Position numbers and translations under genes: made by a program. A stretch of DNA of 64,000 nt from Eubacteriales bacterium (GTDB lineage Bacteria; Bacillota; Clostridia; Lachnospirales; Lachnospiraceae), in contig JAUNJF010000001.1 in the NCBI GenBank assembly GCA_030533405.1, forward strand, positions 124,001-188,000. The letters are read 5' to 3'. Below the pieces are notes generated by a model. The model searched no databases. It saw only the letters and a program-made list of their open reading frames with translations, and was not told where the DNA came from. Below, piece by piece: positions 31,889 through 53,376 of this stretch; the first letter of the stretch is position 1, and each line of letters opens with the position of its first letter.

Positions 31889-33436
31889 ATGGATTGGAAA
31901 GAAGCAATTGAAGATTTAGAAAGTCGTCGTAATCAGGCTAAGCTTGGTGGCGGTGAAGTTGCGATTGAAAAACAGCATGAAAAAGGCAAATTAACAGCGC
32001 GTGAGCGTTTGAATTTATTATTTGATGAGGGAACATTTGTTGAGATTAATGACTTGGCAGAATCCCGAATCGATGATTTTGGATTAGATAAGAAGAGAGT
32101 GCCTGGCGATGGTGTTGTAACAGGTTACGGTAAGATTAATGGTCGTACAGTATTTGCATCATCAGAGGATTTTACTGTTATTGGTGGAAGTCTTGGTGAA
32201 TATCACTCTCGTAAGATTGTACATTTGCAGGATATGGCAATTCGTATGAAATGCCCAATTGTTACAATCAATGATAGTGGCGGAGCAAGAATTGAAGAAG
32301 GTATCGATTCTCTTAGTGGATATTCTGGTATCTTTGAACGTAACACGATTGCATCTGGTGTAATTCCACAGATTGCGGTTATTTTAGGACCTTGTTCTGG
32401 TGGTGCATGTTATTCACCAGCTATTTGTGATTTTATTTTTGTGGTTGAGGAAGTAAGCAAGATGTTTATCACAGGACCTCAGGTTGTAAAGACAGTAATT
32501 GGTGAGGAATTGAGTCCAGAGGAGCTTGGTGGTGCGGTAGCACATGCAACCAAATCTGGTGTGGCACATTTCTTATATAAGAGCGAGGTAAATTGTCTTG
32601 GTGGTGTAAGAGAATTACTTTCATATTTGCCAGATAACAATATGGAAAAGCTTCCAGTTAAGAGTAATTTTAAGAGTGTAGACCGTTCTAAGGATATCGT
32701 AGATATCGTGCCAGATAACAAGAAAAAAGGCTACGATGTACATGATGTCATCAATACAATGATTGATAAGGACAGCTTCTTTGAGGTACAGAAGAACTGG
32801 GCAAAAAATGCTGTCGTTGGATTTGGTAGAATGGATGGAAACACTGTAGGATTTGTTTGTAATCAGGCAAATTTCAAGGGTGGTTCCTTAGATATTGATG
32901 CATCCGATAAGATGGCAAGATTTATTCGATTCTGTGACTGTTTCAATATTCCAATTGTTTCTTTGATTGATGTACCTGCATTTTTACCAGGTTCTGAGCA
33001 GGAGCATAATGGAATTATTCGTCACGGTGCTAAGATTTTATATGCTTATTCAGAGGCAACTGTGCCTAAGATTTCATTGATTATGAGAAAAGCATATGGT
33101 GGTGCTTACATTGCTATGAATTCAAAGCATATGGGTGCTGATATTGTATATGCATGGCCAATCGCGGAAATCGCGGTTATGGGTGCAGAGGGCGCTGTAA
33201 ATATCATTGGTAGAAAACAGATTAGCGCTGCGGAGGATCCAGAGGCAAAACGTGCAGAGTTGATTAATGAGTATGAGGATAAATTCCTGAATCCTTATAT
33301 TGCTGCAAAACGCGGGTTTGTGGATGAGGTTATTCGTCCAGATGAAACAAGACAAAAGATTGCAGCAGCGTTAGATGTGTTGAAAACAAAACAGGTGTCA
33401 AGACCGTTTAAAAAACATGGAAATTGTCCATTATAG
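31889..33436 (+). CDS. Biotin-dependent carboxyltransferase (propionyl/methylmalonyl-CoA type)
   Basis: About 515 residues of the carboxyltransferase superfamily in which alpha and beta halves are fused (PccB/MmdA/AccD-like). Features: N-terminal KLTARERLNLLFDEGTFVEI, SSEDFTVIGGSLGE, the oxyanion loops NDSGGARIEEG and GPCSGGACYSP, and in the second half VPAFLPGSEQEHNGIIRHGAK and RKAYGGAYIAM with the GG and AY pattern. ATG 31889 follows AGGAGGG and is preferred over GTG 31868. No beta/gamma decarboxylase subunits lie nearby, so it is not obviously a sodium-pump decarboxylase. Its biotin carboxylase and carrier might be those of the upstream operon. Confidence 0.88.
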   Translation: MDWKEAIEDLESRRNQAKLGGGEVAIEKQHEKGKLTARERLNLLFDEGTFVEINDLAESRIDDFGLDKKRVPGDGVVTGYGKINGRTVFASSEDFTVIGGSLGEYHSRKIVHLQDMAIRMKCPIVTINDSGGARIEEGIDSLSGYSGIFERNTIASGVIPQIAVILGPCSGGACYSPAICDFIFVVEEVSKMFITGPQVVKTVIGEELSPEELGGAVAHATKSGVAHFLYKSEVNCLGGVRELLSYLPDNNMEKLPVKSNFKSVDRSKDIVDIVPDNKKKGYDVHDVINTMIDKDSFFEVQKNWAKNAVVGFGRMDGNTVGFVCNQANFKGGSLDIDASDKMARFIRFCDCFNIPIVSLIDVPAFLPGSEQEHNGIIRHGAKILYAYSEATVPKISLIMRKAYGGAYIAMNSKHMGADIVYAWPIAEIAVMGAEGAVNIIGRKQISAAEDPEAKRAELINEYEDKFLNPYIAAKRGFVDEVIRPDETRQKIAAALDVLKTKQVSRPFKKHGNCPL

Positions 33437-46711: not shown

Positions 46712-46758
46712 AATAATAAGAGAAGCCCTGACTCGAAAGCAGAGCTTCTCTTATTATT
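46712..46758. terminator. Bidirectional terminator hairpin
   Basis: AATAATAAGAGAAGC and GCTTCTCTTATTATT are 15-bp perfect complements between converging genes. The right arm overlaps the last codon region of the minus-strand regulator. Confidence 0.75.
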
Positions 46759-47374
46759 TATGCTGATAATAGAATACAGCTAACTGTGTACGATCACGTA
46801 GCTCTAATTTTTCCAGAATGTTACTTAGATAGTTGCGAACAGTTCCTTCACTGAGGAAGAGCTTGTCTGCAATTTCTTTGTTACTAAGTCCATCTGCAAT
46901 CAGAGTAATAATCTCATATTCCTTTTCTGTAATGCCATAGGAAGAATAATCAAAGCTGTCTGCGGACTTCATCAGGTTTGGAATCTTTTGAATGATTTCA
47001 TCACCGTAAACATTTTGTCCAGAATATACCGCTTCTAACGCAGGAATAATGTGTTCAAAATTCTGCTTGATAATGTATCCCTTTGCACCTAATTCCAACG
47101 CTTTCACGATGTATTCATCATCTAAAAATGTAGTTAAGAATAACACCTTTGCGTCTGGAAATTCTGCAAGTACCTGAGAAAGCGCCTCAGTTCCGTTCAT
47201 ATTCTGCATACGAATATCCATCAGCAGTACGTCAGGTTTATGGGTGCGATATAAGTTCAATGCCTCTGAACCATCATTTCCAACTGCAGCCACCTCAATG
47301 GATGGGTCAGCTTCTAATATTATCTTTAATGACATACATACCAACTGGTCATCGTCAATCAATACAATTTTCAT
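46754..47374 (-). CDS. NarL/LuxR-family response regulator
   Basis: About 206 residues. Receiver: DDD at residues 7-9, phospho-Asp in DVLLMDIRMQNMNGTEAL, LFLTTF and the Lys in GYIIKQN. C-terminal LuxR-type helix-turn-helix: ITEKEYEIITLIADGLSNKE, LFLSEGTVRNYLSNILEKL. The start is placed at 47374 (MKIVLIDDD) with GGGAGA upstream; an upstream in-frame start at 47407 gives an unrelated 11-residue extension. It belongs with the adjacent kinase and probably controls the divergent ABC exporter genes. Confidence 0.88.
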   Translation of the reverse strand: MKIVLIDDDQLVCMSLKIILEADPSIEVAAVGNDGSEALNLYRTHKPDVLLMDIRMQNMNGTEALSQVLAEFPDAKVLFLTTFLDDEYIVKALELGAKGYIIKQNFEHIIPALEAVYSGQNVYGDEIIQKIPNLMKSADSFDYSSYGITEKEYEIITLIADGLSNKEIADKLFLSEGTVRNYLSNILEKLELRDRTQLAVFYYQHK

Positions 47375-47457
47375 ATGAATCTCCCATTTGTTAATTATCT
47401 GTTTCACGTGTTATTATGATAGCTGATCAGCAAAAATGCAAGAGGAAGAAAGGAATC

Positions 47458-48522
47458 CTATTGTTGTTTTGGGATAGAAAGGAAAATTCGAAATCCATGA
47501 TCTGTTGTAATATGCAAATTGCCGTGCAATGCACTGGCACGTTCTTTCATGTTTGTAAGTCCAATTCCGTCTGAATCATTTTTATGAAGACCGTTCGTTC
47601 CGTTATCCTCCACTAACAACTGATAAAAACCAGGGTGTTCTCGCATGGTAACTGTAACCTCGGTGGCATTACTGTGTTTGATAATGTTATTCAATGCTTC
47701 CTTCACAATAGCAATGATGCAATATTTTACGTCTTTTGGAACATGTCTTGAAGTATCACATTCAAAGGAAATGGAACAGAATGTGAAGTTGTCTATCAAG
47801 TTCTGAAGAGCGCTTTTCAAATCCACCGATTCATCGTGTAGGTCATGTACACTGTTACGAATGTTGTTCATGGCCTCATTTAAGGTATCCTTCAAACTTT
47901 CTAAATGTGGTTTTAGTGCTGCATCCTTGCAAATTGCGAGCAACGCACCAACTTGTAAAATGGAGCGGGAAAGCATGTGTCCCACATTGTCGTGAATTTC
48001 GCGGGCAATTCTATTTCGCTCTGATAAAGTAGCGACGTAAATGTTCTCATTTTGACTAATAATCAATTGCTCGTTTTTGTGTCGAAGCTGCATTTCCTGT
48101 TCTACACTATTGTCACGAAGTGCCTTGATGGTTGTCTCTAAATGTTTCTGTATCTGATTGCGATAAGCCAGATAAAAACTAATGCCGTAAGTAAGATAAA
48201 TCATCGCATTATGCGTAGAAATTGTATGATGATAAATCAGGGCAGGTATCATTCCGATGCCACAGATTACATAGTGTTTTCGAAAGAAAACAGCATATAA
48301 AATGGCAGGGAGAAACACTACGAATAAAGGATTGAAAAAGGCGATTCCAATAGCAAAGCTGCCAATTATAATCTGTGGTATTTTCTTTTGAAAAGAAATG
48401 CTAAAACAGGACAAAGAAATGGCAAGCATCAAAAAAACCAAAGTGGAAGCCTTAAGATCCTGAAACGGAAACAGGCAAAAACACAATATGAAAATGACCA
48501 AAGTTTCTATATAAGTTCGCAT
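47458..48522 (-). CDS. Sensor histidine kinase, HisKA_3 type (LiaS/DesK-like)
   Basis: 354 residues. The N-terminal 130 residues hold five or six hydrophobic helices (VIFILCFCLFPFQ, LVFLMLAISLSCFSI and others) with short loops, a DesK-like intramembrane sensor layout. A coiled region follows, then the phospho-acceptor motif RNRIAREIHDNVGHMLSRSI and the ATPase domain with VKEALNNIIKHSNAT and DNGTNGLHKNDSDGIGLTNM. It would phosphorylate the NarL-type regulator encoded 84 bp downstream. It is divergent from the ABC-2 exporter operon. Confidence 0.87.
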   Translation of the reverse strand: MRTYIETLVIFILCFCLFPFQDLKASTLVFLMLAISLSCFSISFQKKIPQIIIGSFAIGIAFFNPLFVVFLPAILYAVFFRKHYVICGIGMIPALIYHHTISTHNAMIYLTYGISFYLAYRNQIQKHLETTIKALRDNSVEQEMQLRHKNEQLIISQNENIYVATLSERNRIAREIHDNVGHMLSRSILQVGALLAICKDAALKPHLESLKDTLNEAMNNIRNSVHDLHDESVDLKSALQNLIDNFTFCSISFECDTSRHVPKDVKYCIIAIVKEALNNIIKHSNATEVTVTMREHPGFYQLLVEDNGTNGLHKNDSDGIGLTNMKERASALHGNLHITTDHGFRIFLSIPKQQ

Positions 48523-48610: not shown

Positions 48611-48762
48611 TATTCATTTCTTACATTTCACACTACAAATCATTTTCACGATTTTATATGATATGTACAACAGAAATACAAAGTATCATCGGTTTCTTCA
48701 CCAAGGCGAAGCGGAATGTGAAGAATCGTTTTAAGAAGACGAGAAAATAAAGGAGAATGAAT

Positions 48763-49695
48763 ATGGTAGTAGAGATTGAGAATTTAGTTAAGAGATATGG
48801 AAATCTGGTTGCATTAGATCATTTTAATTTGCAGATTAAGGAGGGTGAGGTGTTTGGATTGCTTGGTCCAAACGGAAGTGGTAAATCCACAACCATTCAT
48901 TGTTTGTTGTCTCTCCTAGAGTATGATAAAGGAACCATCAAGGTGTTTGGTCAGGAAATGAAACCAACCAGTTATGATTTGAAAAAAGATATTGGTGTAA
49001 TCATGCAAAATGTAGCTGTGTTTGAAGAACTTACTGTATATGAAAACATTGATTACTTTTGCGGATTATATATAAAAGATAAGGCAAAGAGAAAGCAGTA
49101 TGTGGAAGAAGCAATTGCATTTGTGGAGCTTCAGGATTATAAAAAGTTTTACCCAAAGAAGCTTTCAGGTGGTTTGCTTCGAAGATTAAATATCGCTTGT
49201 GGAATTGCTCATAAGCCAAAGCTAATCATTTTAGACGAGCCAACGGTAGCTGTTGATCCACAGAGTCGTAACAAGATTCTAGAGGGTATCATGGAGTTGA
49301 ATCGTCAGGGCGCTACCATCATTTATACTTCGCATTATATGGAAGAGGTAGAGCAGATTTGTACGAAGATTGCCATTATGGATAAGGGTAAAAATATTGC
49401 ACTTGGAACCAAGGATGAACTTAAGAATATGATTGATTTGGGCGAGACGATTTCTGTTGAAATTTTAGAATTGCCAGATAGCACACAGGCAGCGATTAAA
49501 GCATTGCCACATGTTATGAAGGTGGAATATGAAAATTATGTATTGAAGGTTCGTTTCTCAAAAGGAAAACACAATCTGATTCGTTTGCTTGATTTACTGA
49601 AGGAAGAGGAGATTGGGTTCGGTGGTGTTCATTCTGAACTGCCAACTCTAAATGACGTTTTCCTCGAGATTACTGGTAAGGAACTTAGAGATTGA
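48763..49695 (+). CDS. ABC-2 exporter ATP-binding protein
   Basis: About 310 residues. Walker A LLGPNGSGKSTTIHCL near residue 35, Q-loop GVIMQNVAVFEELTVYEN, signature LSGGLLRRLNIACGIAHKP (canonical LSGGQ is LSGGL here), Walker B LIILDEPTVAVDPQ, and the switch His in YTSHYMEEV. A C-terminal 90-residue extension is typical of DrrA/CcmA-type exporters. ATG 48763 follows AAGGAG at the right distance; 48757 is too close to it. It starts the operon with two permease genes. Confidence 0.88.
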   Translation: MVVEIENLVKRYGNLVALDHFNLQIKEGEVFGLLGPNGSGKSTTIHCLLSLLEYDKGTIKVFGQEMKPTSYDLKKDIGVIMQNVAVFEELTVYENIDYFCGLYIKDKAKRKQYVEEAIAFVELQDYKKFYPKKLSGGLLRRLNIACGIAHKPKLIILDEPTVAVDPQSRNKILEGIMELNRQGATIIYTSHYMEEVEQICTKIAIMDKGKNIALGTKDELKNMIDLGETISVEILELPDSTQAAIKALPHVMKVEYENYVLKVRFSKGKHNLIRLLDLLKEEEIGFGGVHSELPTLNDVFLEITGKELRD

Positions 49696-49709
49696 GGAGG
49701 GAACAGGCA

Positions 49710-50843
49710 ATGATACATTTTTGGTATAGAATTAAGGTAATGCTGAGGGAGCGCAGCTCCATTTTCTGGAATTTAATTTTTCCTATCTTTTTGGGATTTT
49801 TATTCTATGTAATGTTTAACAATATCATCAACAATGTGGAGAAGTTTAGCGAGATTTCAGTTGGTCTGGTGTTGGAACAGGAGCAGGCAGATTTTTCAAA
49901 ACTGATCAAGGAAGTAGAAGTTGAGGGTGGCAAAAAGATGTTTGCTGTAACCGAATACAAGGATGCGGATGCAGCGAAGAAAGCGCTTGATGAGGATGAG
50001 ATATATGGTTACATTACAGTAGCAGATGATTTTCATTTGGTTGTCAAAGCATCTAATATTCAGACCACTGTGATTAAGGTATTTTTAGATCAGTATATTC
50101 AAAACAGCAAACTGATTGAAAATGTGGCAAAGGAAAATCCGCAACAGGTAAATGCGGTGGTACAGGGATTGATGAATGCAGGTGAAATTGAGATTAAAAA
50201 CATTCCGTTGCCAGGACAGGATAAATCACCATACACACAGTATTTTTACGCATTGATTGCTATGACATGTTTGATTGCATCTACAATTGGTCTTCAAAAT
50301 GGTAATAATATTCAGGCAGATTTATCGGCTTTGGCAGCAAGAAGAAATGTGGCACCAACCAAGAAAATGAAGCAGGTGTTAATTGATTTCCTGGCAAGCT
50401 ACCTTGTAGTTGGAATTATGGCAACGATAATTTTAGCTATGGTGGTATATGGATTTAAGCAGGACTTTGGTGGCAATATTGCACCGATTTTGTTGGTTAC
50501 CTGGGTAGGAAGCTTTACTGGACTTGCGGGGGGAATGATGATTGGTGTTTGCTTAAAGGGAAGCAAACGTATGAAGGAAGGATTTAGTACTGCATTTTTT
50601 ATGGGAAGTTCATTTCTCGGCGGTTTGCAGATCGTAACGATTACTTACGTAATAGAGAAGCACTGTCCAATCATTAATCGCATCAATCCTGCAACCTTGA
50701 TTGTAAATGCATGTAAGAGTTTGGCTGTATTTGGAGATACGAGACAGTATGTGATTAATTTGGTTACTTTGACTGCAATAGGAATCGCATTTTTGATTAT
50801 TAGTATTTTGAAGTTAAGGAGGACAAAATATGCTAGTATTTAA
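49710..50843 (+). CDS. ABC-2 type permease (first of two)
   Basis: About 377 residues in the ABC-2 membrane family: one N-terminal helix (FWNLIFPIFLGFLFYVMF), a 150-residue external domain, then five C-terminal helices including FYALIAMTCLIASTIGLQ and LIDFLASYLVVGIMATIILAMV. The ATG at 49710 follows AGGAGG, whereas the upstream in-frame TTG is weak. It overlaps the second permease by 14 bp. Together with the ATPase these form an exporter probably controlled by the divergent kinase/regulator pair. The substrate is unknown. Confidence 0.85.
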   Translation: MIHFWYRIKVMLRERSSIFWNLIFPIFLGFLFYVMFNNIINNVEKFSEISVGLVLEQEQADFSKLIKEVEVEGGKKMFAVTEYKDADAAKKALDEDEIYGYITVADDFHLVVKASNIQTTVIKVFLDQYIQNSKLIENVAKENPQQVNAVVQGLMNAGEIEIKNIPLPGQDKSPYTQYFYALIAMTCLIASTIGLQNGNNIQADLSALAARRNVAPTKKMKQVLIDFLASYLVVGIMATIILAMVVYGFKQDFGGNIAPILLVTWVGSFTGLAGGMMIGVCLKGSKRMKEGFSTAFFMGSSFLGGLQIVTITYVIEKHCPIINRINPATLIVNACKSLAVFGDTRQYVINLVTLTAIGIAFLIISILKLRRTKYASI

Positions 50844-51999
50844 TACATTTTTTCGTTTGTTAAAAAGATTAAAGGGACAAATCATAGTATATGGTGTTGT
50901 TTTCCTATCTTTAGCACTTGCTATGACAAAGGTTTTGACAACTGACAACAGTACAAAGGATTTCCAGGAAAATAGTATGGAACTTGCTGTAATCAATCGT
51001 AGTCAGGGTGTATTTGGAGAGGCAGTAAAAGAATATTTTGGAACCACCAATGAAATCATAGACGTAGTAGATGATGAAAGTGCTATTGAGGATATGCTTT
51101 ATTGGAGAGAGTTAGATTATGCGTTGATTATTCCAGAGGACTTTGAGGATAGCATAAAAGATGGAAAGATTACAAAGGATTTGCAGTGCTTAGAGGTGCC
51201 TGGTAATTTTGAAAGCAGCGTCTTCAAGGCAGAGCTTGAAATGTATATTAGTAAGATGTCTGGTCTTATGGCAGGTGGTATGAGTATAGAGGATGCAACC
51301 AAGGAATTAGAGAAGTTAAAATCAGAGCAGGTAACTGTAGAGGTGGCAAGCTTTGTAAATGAACAGCAGGGAGATGTGATTTCGAACTTCTTCTCTTATG
51401 CACCGTATTTATTTCTTTCGTTGGGAATTGTTGTCATCAGTTCGGTACTCATTTTCTTCAATGAAATAGAAGTGAAAAAGCGTATGGAATGCAGCTCTAT
51501 GCCATTGTTCAAAAGACAGGTAAGTCTCTTTGGTGCCATTGTAGCATTTGGAATGTTATTACTTGCAGTTGTACTCGTACTTGCAGCTGTTATGTCAAAG
51601 GGCTCTATGTTCACGGATGTTAGAATGCCATACTTTTTATTGAATCTTACCACCATGTTACTCTTTTCTGTGAGTCTCGCCTTTTTGGCAGGAACATTAT
51701 TTGATAAGACAGAGTCGGTAAATGGATTTGTAAATATCGTTAGTTTGGCACTTTGTTTTCTAGGTGGTATCTTTGTGCCACAGGAATTCTTTTCGGAGGG
51801 TGTACAGAGTGCAGCAAGATTTATGCCAACCTACTGGTACACAAAATCTAATGTAAGCATCAGTGCAATGGCTACTGTAACAGATGCGTTCCGCAAAGAA
51901 ATTTTTATGCAGAATTTATTCGTATTTAGTTCGGCGATAGCAGTGTTTGCGATTTCCATCGTAATCGTTAATCTTAAAAGACGTAGAATCGCTGCCTAG
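50830..51999 (+). CDS. ABC-2 type permease (second of two)
   Basis: 389 residues, same architecture as the preceding permease: N-terminal helix (GQIIVYGVVFLSLALAM), external domain of about 170 residues, and five helices from residue 190 (FFSYAPYLFLSLGIVVISSV to FVFSSAIAVFAISIVIV). AAGGAGG lies upstream of the ATG inside the previous gene. It is the last gene of the operon; the giant palindrome begins 46 bp after its stop. Confidence 0.85.
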   Translation: MLVFNTFFRLLKRLKGQIIVYGVVFLSLALAMTKVLTTDNSTKDFQENSMELAVINRSQGVFGEAVKEYFGTTNEIIDVVDDESAIEDMLYWRELDYALIIPEDFEDSIKDGKITKDLQCLEVPGNFESSVFKAELEMYISKMSGLMAGGMSIEDATKELEKLKSEQVTVEVASFVNEQQGDVISNFFSYAPYLFLSLGIVVISSVLIFFNEIEVKKRMECSSMPLFKRQVSLFGAIVAFGMLLLAVVLVLAAVMSKGSMFTDVRMPYFLLNLTTMLLFSVSLAFLAGTLFDKTESVNGFVNIVSLALCFLGGIFVPQEFFSEGVQSAARFMPTYWYTKSNVSISAMATVTDAFRKEIFMQNLFVFSSAIAVFAISIVIVNLKRRRIAA

Positions 52000-52044
52000 C
52001 AGACTATGTTATCACTTTGTATGACATATTTTGGACGATATATA

Positions 52045-52502
52045 TTTACGACACAACGAAATCTCCCATCATATAGTTTATAGAATCATCTTAGGGAACT
52101 GCTAGCTTTTTTTCACGGTTATCCGATTCATGAAACGCTAAATGATTTGTATTTTAGAATAACCAGCAAACTGCTTTCCAAAAACTCGCATAATTTGGTG
52201 AGTTGTGTTCTTGCAAAAGAGGGTATTTCAAGCCGTCGGTACTTAGGTCCAAGCAATTAGATTTATTTACTTGTTTCAATTTTTTGCTTGGACCTTACGT
52301 ACCGCTACGCCTTGGATTAAACGCAAGTGTCCCCGTTGCAAGACACAACCTCCCAAATCATGCTCAAACATTTGTCCGCAGTTTGCTATTCTAAAATACA
52401 AATCATAACCGTTTCTATGAATCCTCAAAATGCGAAAAAAACCTAGCAGTTCTCCAAGATGATTTTTATAAGTTTTTTGAGGAGATTTCGTTGTGTCGTA
52501 AA
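52045..52502. repeat. 458-bp imperfect palindrome (giant hairpin element)
   Basis: The outermost 22 bp at 52045-52066 and 52481-52502 are perfect inverted copies. Further in, the arms keep matching: AATCATCTT and AACTGCTAG near 52083-52105 against 52441-52470, ATGATTTGTATTTTAGAATA near 52141 against 52386-52409, GCAAACTGC, GTTGTGTTCTTGCAA near 52203, and GGTCCAAGCAA (52246) against TTGCTTGGACC (52284). The arms are about 210 nt and the apex loop 27 nt. There is no convincing gene, and no clear target duplication flanks it. Confidence 0.9.
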
Positions 52503-52599
52503 CATTTATGTGGAAAGTTTGTCATACAAGGTGATAAAAATGAATAAAGTTGGAAATGCCGTCTATCCTATTAGGAAAAAGGATAGGGGGCATTTTTTC

Positions 52600-53376
52600 A
52601 TGACCAAAAAAGTAAAATGGAGTTTTTTGATTTTGGTGTGGGGGATTGTTGGGATACAGCTTTTTGTCAATCATCAGCAAAAAATAAATCATGAACAAGT
52701 TGTTACTGCATTTACGGCAATGGATAGTAGTGTGGTGGAAATGGTTTCGGGATATGGGTATTTCGGAAGCATGGAGCTTAATGAGTCTGTCAAAAAGAAG
52801 ATGCTTCATAATTTGGCGAATCAGTTAGGACTTTTGGAACTGGGGCCGTATGAAAAGGAGCATCAGGTATTTTCAAATGATAAGGTGCAGGATAAAAAGG
52901 AACAGCATATTGAAAAAATCGGTGTTTCGGGTATTTATGGGAGTGGTATAGTTTCTCTTCAGTTGATAACGATTTCAGAAAAAAATCAGGAAAATCAGCA
53001 GTATATTCTGATGAAAAATGTGGAAGGGTTGACAGGCGAAGAGGGAAAGGCGCTTTATCATAAGATGAAACAGGTATACCAGGAGATTGGTGTGGAAGGA
53101 AATGTGACAATGGAACAGCTTGTAAAAAAAGAGGGCAATTTGATGGACAACCATGAGCAGATGGCAGATGCATTTTTGAAAGCATACGATGCGACGATGG
53201 TGGATTTTATAAATGAAAATGGAATTTGCACGGTATATGGATATATGGCAGATGAAAAAAATCATTTTTTGCAAAATGGGAAAAAGGTGAATATGCAGAT
53301 TGTTTTTTGTTATGACGAGGCAGAGGATCAAACGGAAATTAAGCTTGGAATTCCAATGGTGAATTCACCTTATTAA
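52600..53376 (+). CDS. YwmB-like protein (TATA-box-binding-like, DUF1779)
   Basis: About 258 residues. A membrane anchor (FLILVWGIVGIQLFVNH) begins near residue 8, and the mature part starts AFTAMDSSVVEMVSGYGYFG, which recalls YwmB of Bacillus and its relatives, exported proteins of unclear role. ATG 52600 is chosen because GGGGG at 52586-52590 stands at a good distance and yields a normal short signal anchor; ATG 52540 with AAGGTGAT is an alternative and would add 20 residues. An earlier start at 52459 lies within the palindrome and is improbable. The confidence reflects recall of a weakly conserved family. Confidence 0.65.
   Translation: MTKKVKWSFLILVWGIVGIQLFVNHQQKINHEQVVTAFTAMDSSVVEMVSGYGYFGSMELNESVKKKMLHNLANQLGLLELGPYEKEHQVFSNDKVQDKKEQHIEKIGVSGIYGSGIVSLQLITISEKNQENQQYILMKNVEGLTGEEGKALYHKMKQVYQEIGVEGNVTMEQLVKKEGNLMDNHEQMADAFLKAYDATMVDFINENGICTVYGYMADEKNHFLQNGKKVNMQIVFCYDEAEDQTEIKLGIPMVNSPY

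Follow-up and report, generated by a model that had tools for sequence, protein, structure and literature searches.

A long palindrome between an exporter operon and a DUF1779 gene

The window, by which we mean the whole 64-kb stretch of DNA analyzed here, contains an ABC-2 exporter operon followed by a long palindrome, a hairpin resembling an intrinsic terminator and a gene of the DUF1779 family. The features of this region are listed below.

48757..51999, plus strand: exporter operon (ABC ATPase, 48757-49695; ABC-2 permeases, 49692-50843 and 50830-51999)
52009..52537, minus strand (the strand on which the core reads in its usual sense): whole imperfect palindrome of 529 bp, from the self-inverted blastn match and the arm alignment
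52045..52066, plus strand: left copy of a perfect 22-bp inner repeat, TTTACGACACAACGAAATCTCC, from sequence and arm alignment
52218..52335, minus strand: conserved folded core at the apex (match to covariance model R1 of 66.4 bits, E 7.2e-14; the window core is one of the six sequences used to build R1)
52257..52283, no strand: 27-nt AT-rich apex loop, flanked by 12-bp perfect arms (52245-52256 and 52284-52295)
52345..52380, minus strand: arm motif TGCGGA..AATGTTTGAGC, common to ~530-bp relatives (weak profile match, E 0.12)
52481..52502, minus strand: right-hand counterpart of that 22-bp perfect repeat, from sequence and arm alignment
52552..52597, plus strand: hairpin resembling an intrinsic terminator, past the right end of the palindrome (folding 52550-52602 gives -22.7 kcal/mol, z -6.1; omitted by a consensus terminator scan, which is limited to loops of 3-8)
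52600..53376, plus strand: downstream gene of the DUF1779 / 'TATA-box binding' family (PF08680, E 4.7e-16; start codon chosen by us)

The palindrome starts at the 10th base past the stop codon of the last permease gene, in agreement with the first-pass annotation, which had placed it right after the exporter operon, and the terminator-like hairpin begins 14 nt beyond its end. The core at its apex is antisense to both neighboring genes. Divergently from the operon, 46754-48522 encodes a response regulator of the LuxR type together with a histidine kinase, and the two may regulate the exporter.

Comparison of the window with itself by blastn recovers 52009-52537 as one self-inverted match of 529 bp, which scores 233 bits at 71.8% identity (554 columns). 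This is far above the chance ceiling of 45.5 bits, the highest score in 20 sequences generated from the 64-kb window by a first-order Markov model; the palindrome is genuine. It had been annotated as a 458-bp palindrome at 52045-52502 with perfect 22-bp ends, but it reaches 36 bp further left and 35 bp further right, which makes the 22-bp repeats internal, and its outer ends read TTATCAC(T/C)TTGTATGACA. The 27-nt AT-rich apex loop on a 12-bp stem is as the annotation described it. In a gapped alignment of the arms, 210 of 258 aligned positions are paired, with 34 gap columns, and the 48 unpaired positions comprise 9 G-T, 6 A-C and 33 other mismatches. When folded as RNA, the 458 nt of 52045-52502 reach -201.7 kcal/mol on the plus strand and -214.8 kcal/mol on the minus strand (z -20.5 and -23.1). 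The other palindromes of the window measure merely 30-48 bp, leaving 52009-52537 as the sole long one.

The description of the palindrome as gene-free stands with a qualification: the ORFs inside 52009-52537 overlap one another and are short (50-63 aa), and one more ORF, with a likely start outside the palindrome, has its early part there. Like a MITE, it is short and has no coding frame. Inspection of the sequence beside the window copy revealed no target duplication, as had been noted before. We excluded an intrinsic terminator as the identity of the palindrome, given its length of 529 bp and the separate terminator-like hairpin at 52552-52597. A protein-coding origin of the arms, considered by eye for a zinc-ribbon-like right arm, was likewise rejected; the frames are broken and the arm indels are not multiples of three.

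The position behind the operon raises a possibility entertained in the first-pass annotation, a large 3' hairpin that controls the exporter mRNA; the palindrome would then be a giant hairpin specific to this locus, protecting the transcript or terminating it. The start of the palindrome at the 10th base after the stop codon and its placement before a terminator-like hairpin are consistent with such a role, as is a different, 810-bp palindrome at the same offset in a relative (L039, 2686-3495, from G004), which also starts at the 10th base past the stop codon of an exporter orthologue. That palindrome contains nested inverted repeats, has no R1 match and shows no significant similarity to the one in the window (best E 0.06), and we accordingly rejected a conserved 3' element after these two orthologous exporters. 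It is also the only long palindrome following the gene among 14 other exporter orthologues (E < 1e-90), one of which (L037) is followed by only about 440 bp of sequence. Moreover, the core recurs at many unrelated loci and is antisense to the exporter here, which weakens a role specific to this locus and makes it improbable. One orthologue has a core match of 64.7 bits about 290 bp upstream of it, not after it (L035:1126-1210, from G022). None of the 14 other genomes that gave a strong exporter match has the exporter and a DUF1779 match together on one contig, which precludes a search for an empty site of the window copy.

The apex core and its distribution in Lachnospiraceae

By DNA similarity, the whole palindrome finds only itself in its own genome, nothing in phages and plasmids, and only short matches in 26 genomes of the genus (own included) and 397 of the family. 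One short match (L003, from G017) is a core copy; those in L004-L006, the best of 397 genomes and devoid of an R1 match, are taken as chance, probably without relationship to the element. The outer arms of the window copy have no match elsewhere in the 1.76 Mb compared. Several other long palindromes in loci of the genus carry a common core at their apices, with a consensus that runs, roughly, GGGCACGCTTGCG-(11 nt)-ACGYAACGGTACTAAA-(apex hairpin)-TTAAGTACCGACGT-...-GCCC. In the window this core occupies the minus strand at 52221-52334 and consists of an outer stem, a short hairpin at the CACTTGCG motif and a long stem with an AG bulge; this segment folds at -38.4 kcal/mol (z -5.2).

The core is folded and widely distributed. 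R1, a covariance model made from six palindrome cores including that of the window, has 34 matches in the own genome, so that the core, as in a MITE, is present in many copies, and the outer arms of the window copy have no second one. The DNA search for further copies proposed in the first-pass annotation returned just the palindrome itself and short matches, and the core model revealed a multicopy family. All 26 genomes of the genus (own included) have R1 matches, 1-111 each and 967 in total (E up to 0.01 per genome, summed), as do 154 of 397 genomes of the family (E up to 1e-4). Only 9 of 331 genomes of the class have them; all 9 come from the own family, three more genomes of that family have no match, and the remaining 319 belong to other families if the listing is ordered by kinship, as it seems to be. 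The E-values of R1 are rough, the larger searches scored just the best candidates per genome, and matches are not exactly copies, since one palindrome may be matched on both of its strands, as low-scoring cases show. When GTDB genomes were scanned with an exact pattern, at least 100 stretches with the core were found; among the 80 listed, most are from Lachnospiraceae or a genus placed there, the other titles being Clostridium sp., Clostridiaceae, Clostridiales, uncultured bacterium, Muribaculaceae (2) and Schwartzia (1). The bacterial family of these genomes is Lachnospiraceae. The membership of the window copy in the repeat family is firm by its core, with the caveat that this core helped build R1.

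Rfam 15 has no entry for the core and yields no gathering-score match over the elements: the best score at the window is 24.7 bits against a cutoff of 70, that at L226 is 25 bits against 100, and L071 gives none up to E 3. One Rfam scan produced five gathering matches, all of them located away from the elements. The exact core pattern has no match in the viral collection, and no description of the element was found in the searches made of open-licence PubMed Central literature, in line with the earlier statement that no described element has this sequence. The family is apparently unlabeled; about 4 in 10 of the sampled genomes of a large gut family carry core matches that apparently lack an Rfam label. 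Further palindrome families seem to exist in the genus: long palindromes at L018:3021-3179, L018:2270-2346 and L019:2545-2693 have no R1 match.

Size classes, ends and arrangement of the copies

The core-bearing palindromes of relatives range from under 100 to about 550 bp, and the copies of the own genome fall into size classes with shared ends. Pairs of TAGGTAATTGCGAAACTC-like ends lie 208-213 bp apart at 19 of 30 own-genome core loci and 285 bp apart at one. Among 20 further own-genome loci, chosen for holding an end, 13 are palindromes of 51-52 or 80-112 bp; those read by eye have no core and look like internal-deletion forms of the longer element. Taken together, shared ends of the kind expected of a MITE occur at 20 of 30 core loci and 13 of 20 end-chosen loci. 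The ends of the window copy differ, being unlike the TAGGTAATTGCGAAAC end, and those of copies in other genomes are mostly undefined.

The shared ends recur 524 bp apart in two relatives (L150 and L225). A long class of about 510-556 bp, with the core and arm motifs, is represented by nine GTDB loci from about four lineages, and the window copy resembles it in size. Of all positions in the 64-kb window, a left-arm profile of nine long relatives fits best at 52380-52345 of the minus strand, as expected, with a weak E of 0.12; the right-arm profile has its best place at 32535 (E 0.07), outside the palindrome. On the joint long-class alignment, the structure of which the window copy helped to make, the window has 83 of 105 positions paired, against 38-58 of about 102 when slid. 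The window copy is thus likely to belong to the long class, as judged by size, pairing and the left-arm motif.

Some cores occur as convergent pairs 86-962 bp apart (L188, L195, L187, L227, L232, L124, L181, L200, L252 and L112). Two of these ten pairs enclose ORFs of 122 and 131 aa, which are mutually unlike; in the other eight there is no listed ORF of at least 40 aa between the cores. One locus (L256) has a tandem run of four cores at 164-bp spacing, and a core copy on another contig of the own genome (L277, G000:C58) apparently has an extra hairpin-forming insertion on its left side.

Signs of mobility and the search for a mobilizing enzyme

Target duplications are present at some elements. 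The end pair is found at 33 of the 50 own-genome loci examined, and 4 of these 33 elements (L289, without the core, and L268, L269 and L271, with it) have perfect direct repeats of at least 8 bp (8-10 bp) beside the ends, a count that allowed 0-3 bases of slack; with shuffled flanks the count averaged 0.19 and never exceeded 3 in 2000 rounds. In another genus, 7 of 10 copies in G231 are matched by one of 10 copies from G597. At an unmatched G231 copy (L308), the flanks match G597 and G638, both of the same genus, up to position 1986 and again from 2275, and the intervening 288 bp are absent from both (6 bp are left in G597). Since a further stretch of about 95 bp next to the hairpin is missing as well and no duplication is clear, the L308 site records a gain or loss of the unit without fixing the mechanism. 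The first-pass suggestion of a fold-back mobile element is therefore supported for the family, by its copies in many genomes, the duplications at 4 of 33 elements and the absence at L308; the window copy itself, with unique outer arms and no duplication, gives it no direct support.

No autonomous partner came to light: among 83 end matches in the own genome (up to two mismatches, in an assembly of 94 contigs), no inverted pair lies 1-3 kb apart. Inverted end pairs 850 and 1158 bp apart occur in L061 and L273, and the end searches of the own genome and of relative loci revealed no transposase bearing TAGGYAATTGCGAAAC ends.

Y1 transposases of the RAYT/IS200 type, which would move a REPIN-like element as single-stranded DNA, deserve separate consideration. 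As portrayed in PMC3116915, REPINs and BIMEs with RAYT are dispersed extragenic folded hairpin repeats that form pairs and clusters, to which the convergent pairs and the one tandem array of the present family may be likened. Unlike them, our element is longer and has a junction core, and its own genome has no Y1_Tnp match. Across the 397 family genomes, carriers of the element show no enrichment of Y1 (78 of 154 genomes with the element and 140 of 243 without, p 0.18); weak-scoring matches behave similarly (34 of 154 and 45 of 243, p 0.44), and the strong-scoring ones differ in the negative direction (40 of 154 and 89 of 243, p 0.03). We rejected a RAYT/REPIN partner on these two grounds. Target duplications, moreover, are not known to accompany Y1 transposition, and we consider a REPIN-like origin very improbable.

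Coordinated change of the arms

The two arms of a copy change together. In the 21 full-length own copies (of the 34 matches), 94.5% of cells are paired, and two-sided change is seen at 49 of 74 pairs, against 25.5 in shuffles and 10-16 when slid (0 of 500 shuffles). The own partner arm fits better than the mean of the other copies' arms in 22 own copies, 7 from G111 and 7 from G354; in G111 the cores are 99.5% alike and the arms 58-64%. Of the changes between copies differing at fewer than 10 pairs, 57% are one-sided, falling to 29% at 30-40 changed pairs. The single-copy occurrence and uncompensated arms that the first-pass annotation had set against a functional or mobile element are not what we observe: the family is multicopy by its core, and compensation in the own-genome copies is strong. 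At one matching site in G231 and G597 (L313 and L318), the cores are 93% alike, and arm complementarity is 0.72 and 0.74 within each copy and 0.58 and 0.46 across the species. These two copies may instead be independent insertions at the same site, and the other six site pairs show little or mixed difference.

Coordinated change of this kind could reflect selection on an RNA stem or upkeep of the DNA itself. Selection on an RNA stem favors G-U over A-C on the transcribed strand, where G-U is tolerated far more. Strand-neutral self-alignments reveal no such excess, with 43 G-U and 54 A-C in 23 own elements (p 0.31) and 158 and 137 in 70 GTDB elements (p 0.24); 27 own and 91 GTDB elements were tried, the remainder having no palindrome or being duplicates. 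The window copy counts 6 and 9. Assigned by structure, own copies have 35 G-U and 29 A-C (31 and 21 in the arms, p 0.21). Two counts lean towards G-U: 85 against 58 (p 0.03) in A5, a core alignment of 126 sequences, with 39 of the 85 at one pair, and 81 against 24 in the long class folded by RNAalifold, where the energy used to pick the structure itself rewards G-U and the independent lineages number only about five. A tRNA control for these counts comprised three tRNAs, too few to serve. The best reading of these counts is that arm pairing is mostly maintained at the DNA level, with A5 and the RNAalifold count opposing.

The same data bear on whether the core is a functional structured RNA with a long stem, either cis-regulatory or small, with the copies serving as regulatory leaders or intercistronic elements. 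The core is conserved, asymmetric and covarying across genera, and the two G-U-leaning counts point the same way. The best evidence for an mRNA role is placement in the own genome: with a simple ORF caller, 18 of 28 copies lie between co-oriented genes with the core in sense and 4 are antisense, and of the 20 copies followed by a sense gene, 17 have its start codon 88-98 nt past the core. Against this, the 91 copies counted of 125 GTDB-scan matches show no orientation bias (32 sense-sense, 27 antisense-antisense), and the window copy is antisense to both neighbors. The load of 1-111 matches per genome, the absence of a strand-neutral G-U excess and the lack of an Rfam gathering-score match also argue against it, and we regard a structured RNA as doubtful.

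A folded single-stranded recombination or replication site, comparable to attC or a single-strand origin, is another candidate: the element is an imperfect palindrome with bulges conserved on one strand, and its pairing is kept without strand preference. The conserved part of the element is its apex, and attC conserves its ends; such a site is the least probable of the identities considered here.

Relationship to known repeats and a proposed history

Bacterial MITEs such as Correia/NEMIS, ERIC and RUP are short, noncoding and intergenic, with inverted ends and several size classes, and some have target duplications or potential mRNA hairpins; the element resembles them in these respects, with paired ends at 33 of the 50 own-genome loci examined and duplications at 4 of those 33. 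RU-1/2/3 (PMC2759123) are counted among the MITEs in this comparison. Unlike MITEs, the element is palindromic throughout, up to about 550 bp, and shares its apex core while its ends and arms vary between genomes; it also has no autonomous partner found and is spread over one bacterial family in the genomes searched. Quasipalindromes corrected by template switching (PMC8794818; see also PMC7202029) resemble it in that their inverted-repeat arms change together, but the element forms a family that is repeated and looks mobile, and its asymmetric core is spared from correction.

The PATEs of Haloquadratum are palindromic and nonautonomous, as is the element, and depend on IS200/IS605 enzymes; we compared the two by description.

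What emerges is a new family of a familiar type of DNA, miniature, palindromic and apparently mobile, with an unusual split between a well-kept folded core and arms that change fast but in coordination. The window palindrome is probably an old, diverged copy of this dispersed, noncoding, nonautonomous, MITE-like fold-back element of Lachnospiraceae, with pairing kept at the DNA level. Copies would be spread by a trans-acting transposase that uses the ends, and duplications of 8-10 bp would suit an element transposed as double-stranded DNA. Once a copy is inserted, its long inverted repeat may fold out when the DNA is replicated, and quasipalindrome correction, in which the template is switched from one arm to the other, could then mend one arm from its partner. 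Such switching is a route to multibase compensation, according to PMC8794818, and under it the arms would drift quickly yet jointly. Template switching would tend to erase asymmetric bulges, yet those of the core persist, so that selection probably acts on the core as a folded structure for recognition. The window copy would have settled between the exporter stop codon and the terminator-like hairpin, and any effect on the 3' end of the exporter mRNA is likely an incidental by-product. More speculatively, and in our estimate unlikely, the element would rewrite itself: the asymmetric folded core would be its heritable part and the arms would continually be copied from one another, leaving related species with different, internally complementary arms at one site, as in L313 and L318.

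These natural palindromes of varied age offer a test bed for the origin of compensatory change, in which RNA selection, DNA-hairpin selection and template switching can be compared. They also carry a warning, as DNA-level processes may produce the strong covariation that usually counts as proof that an RNA is functional. Genome assemblies are affected too: the contig that holds the window (G000 contig 74) starts and ends inside core copies, at 1-86 and 273956-274041, where the repeats probably broke the assembly.
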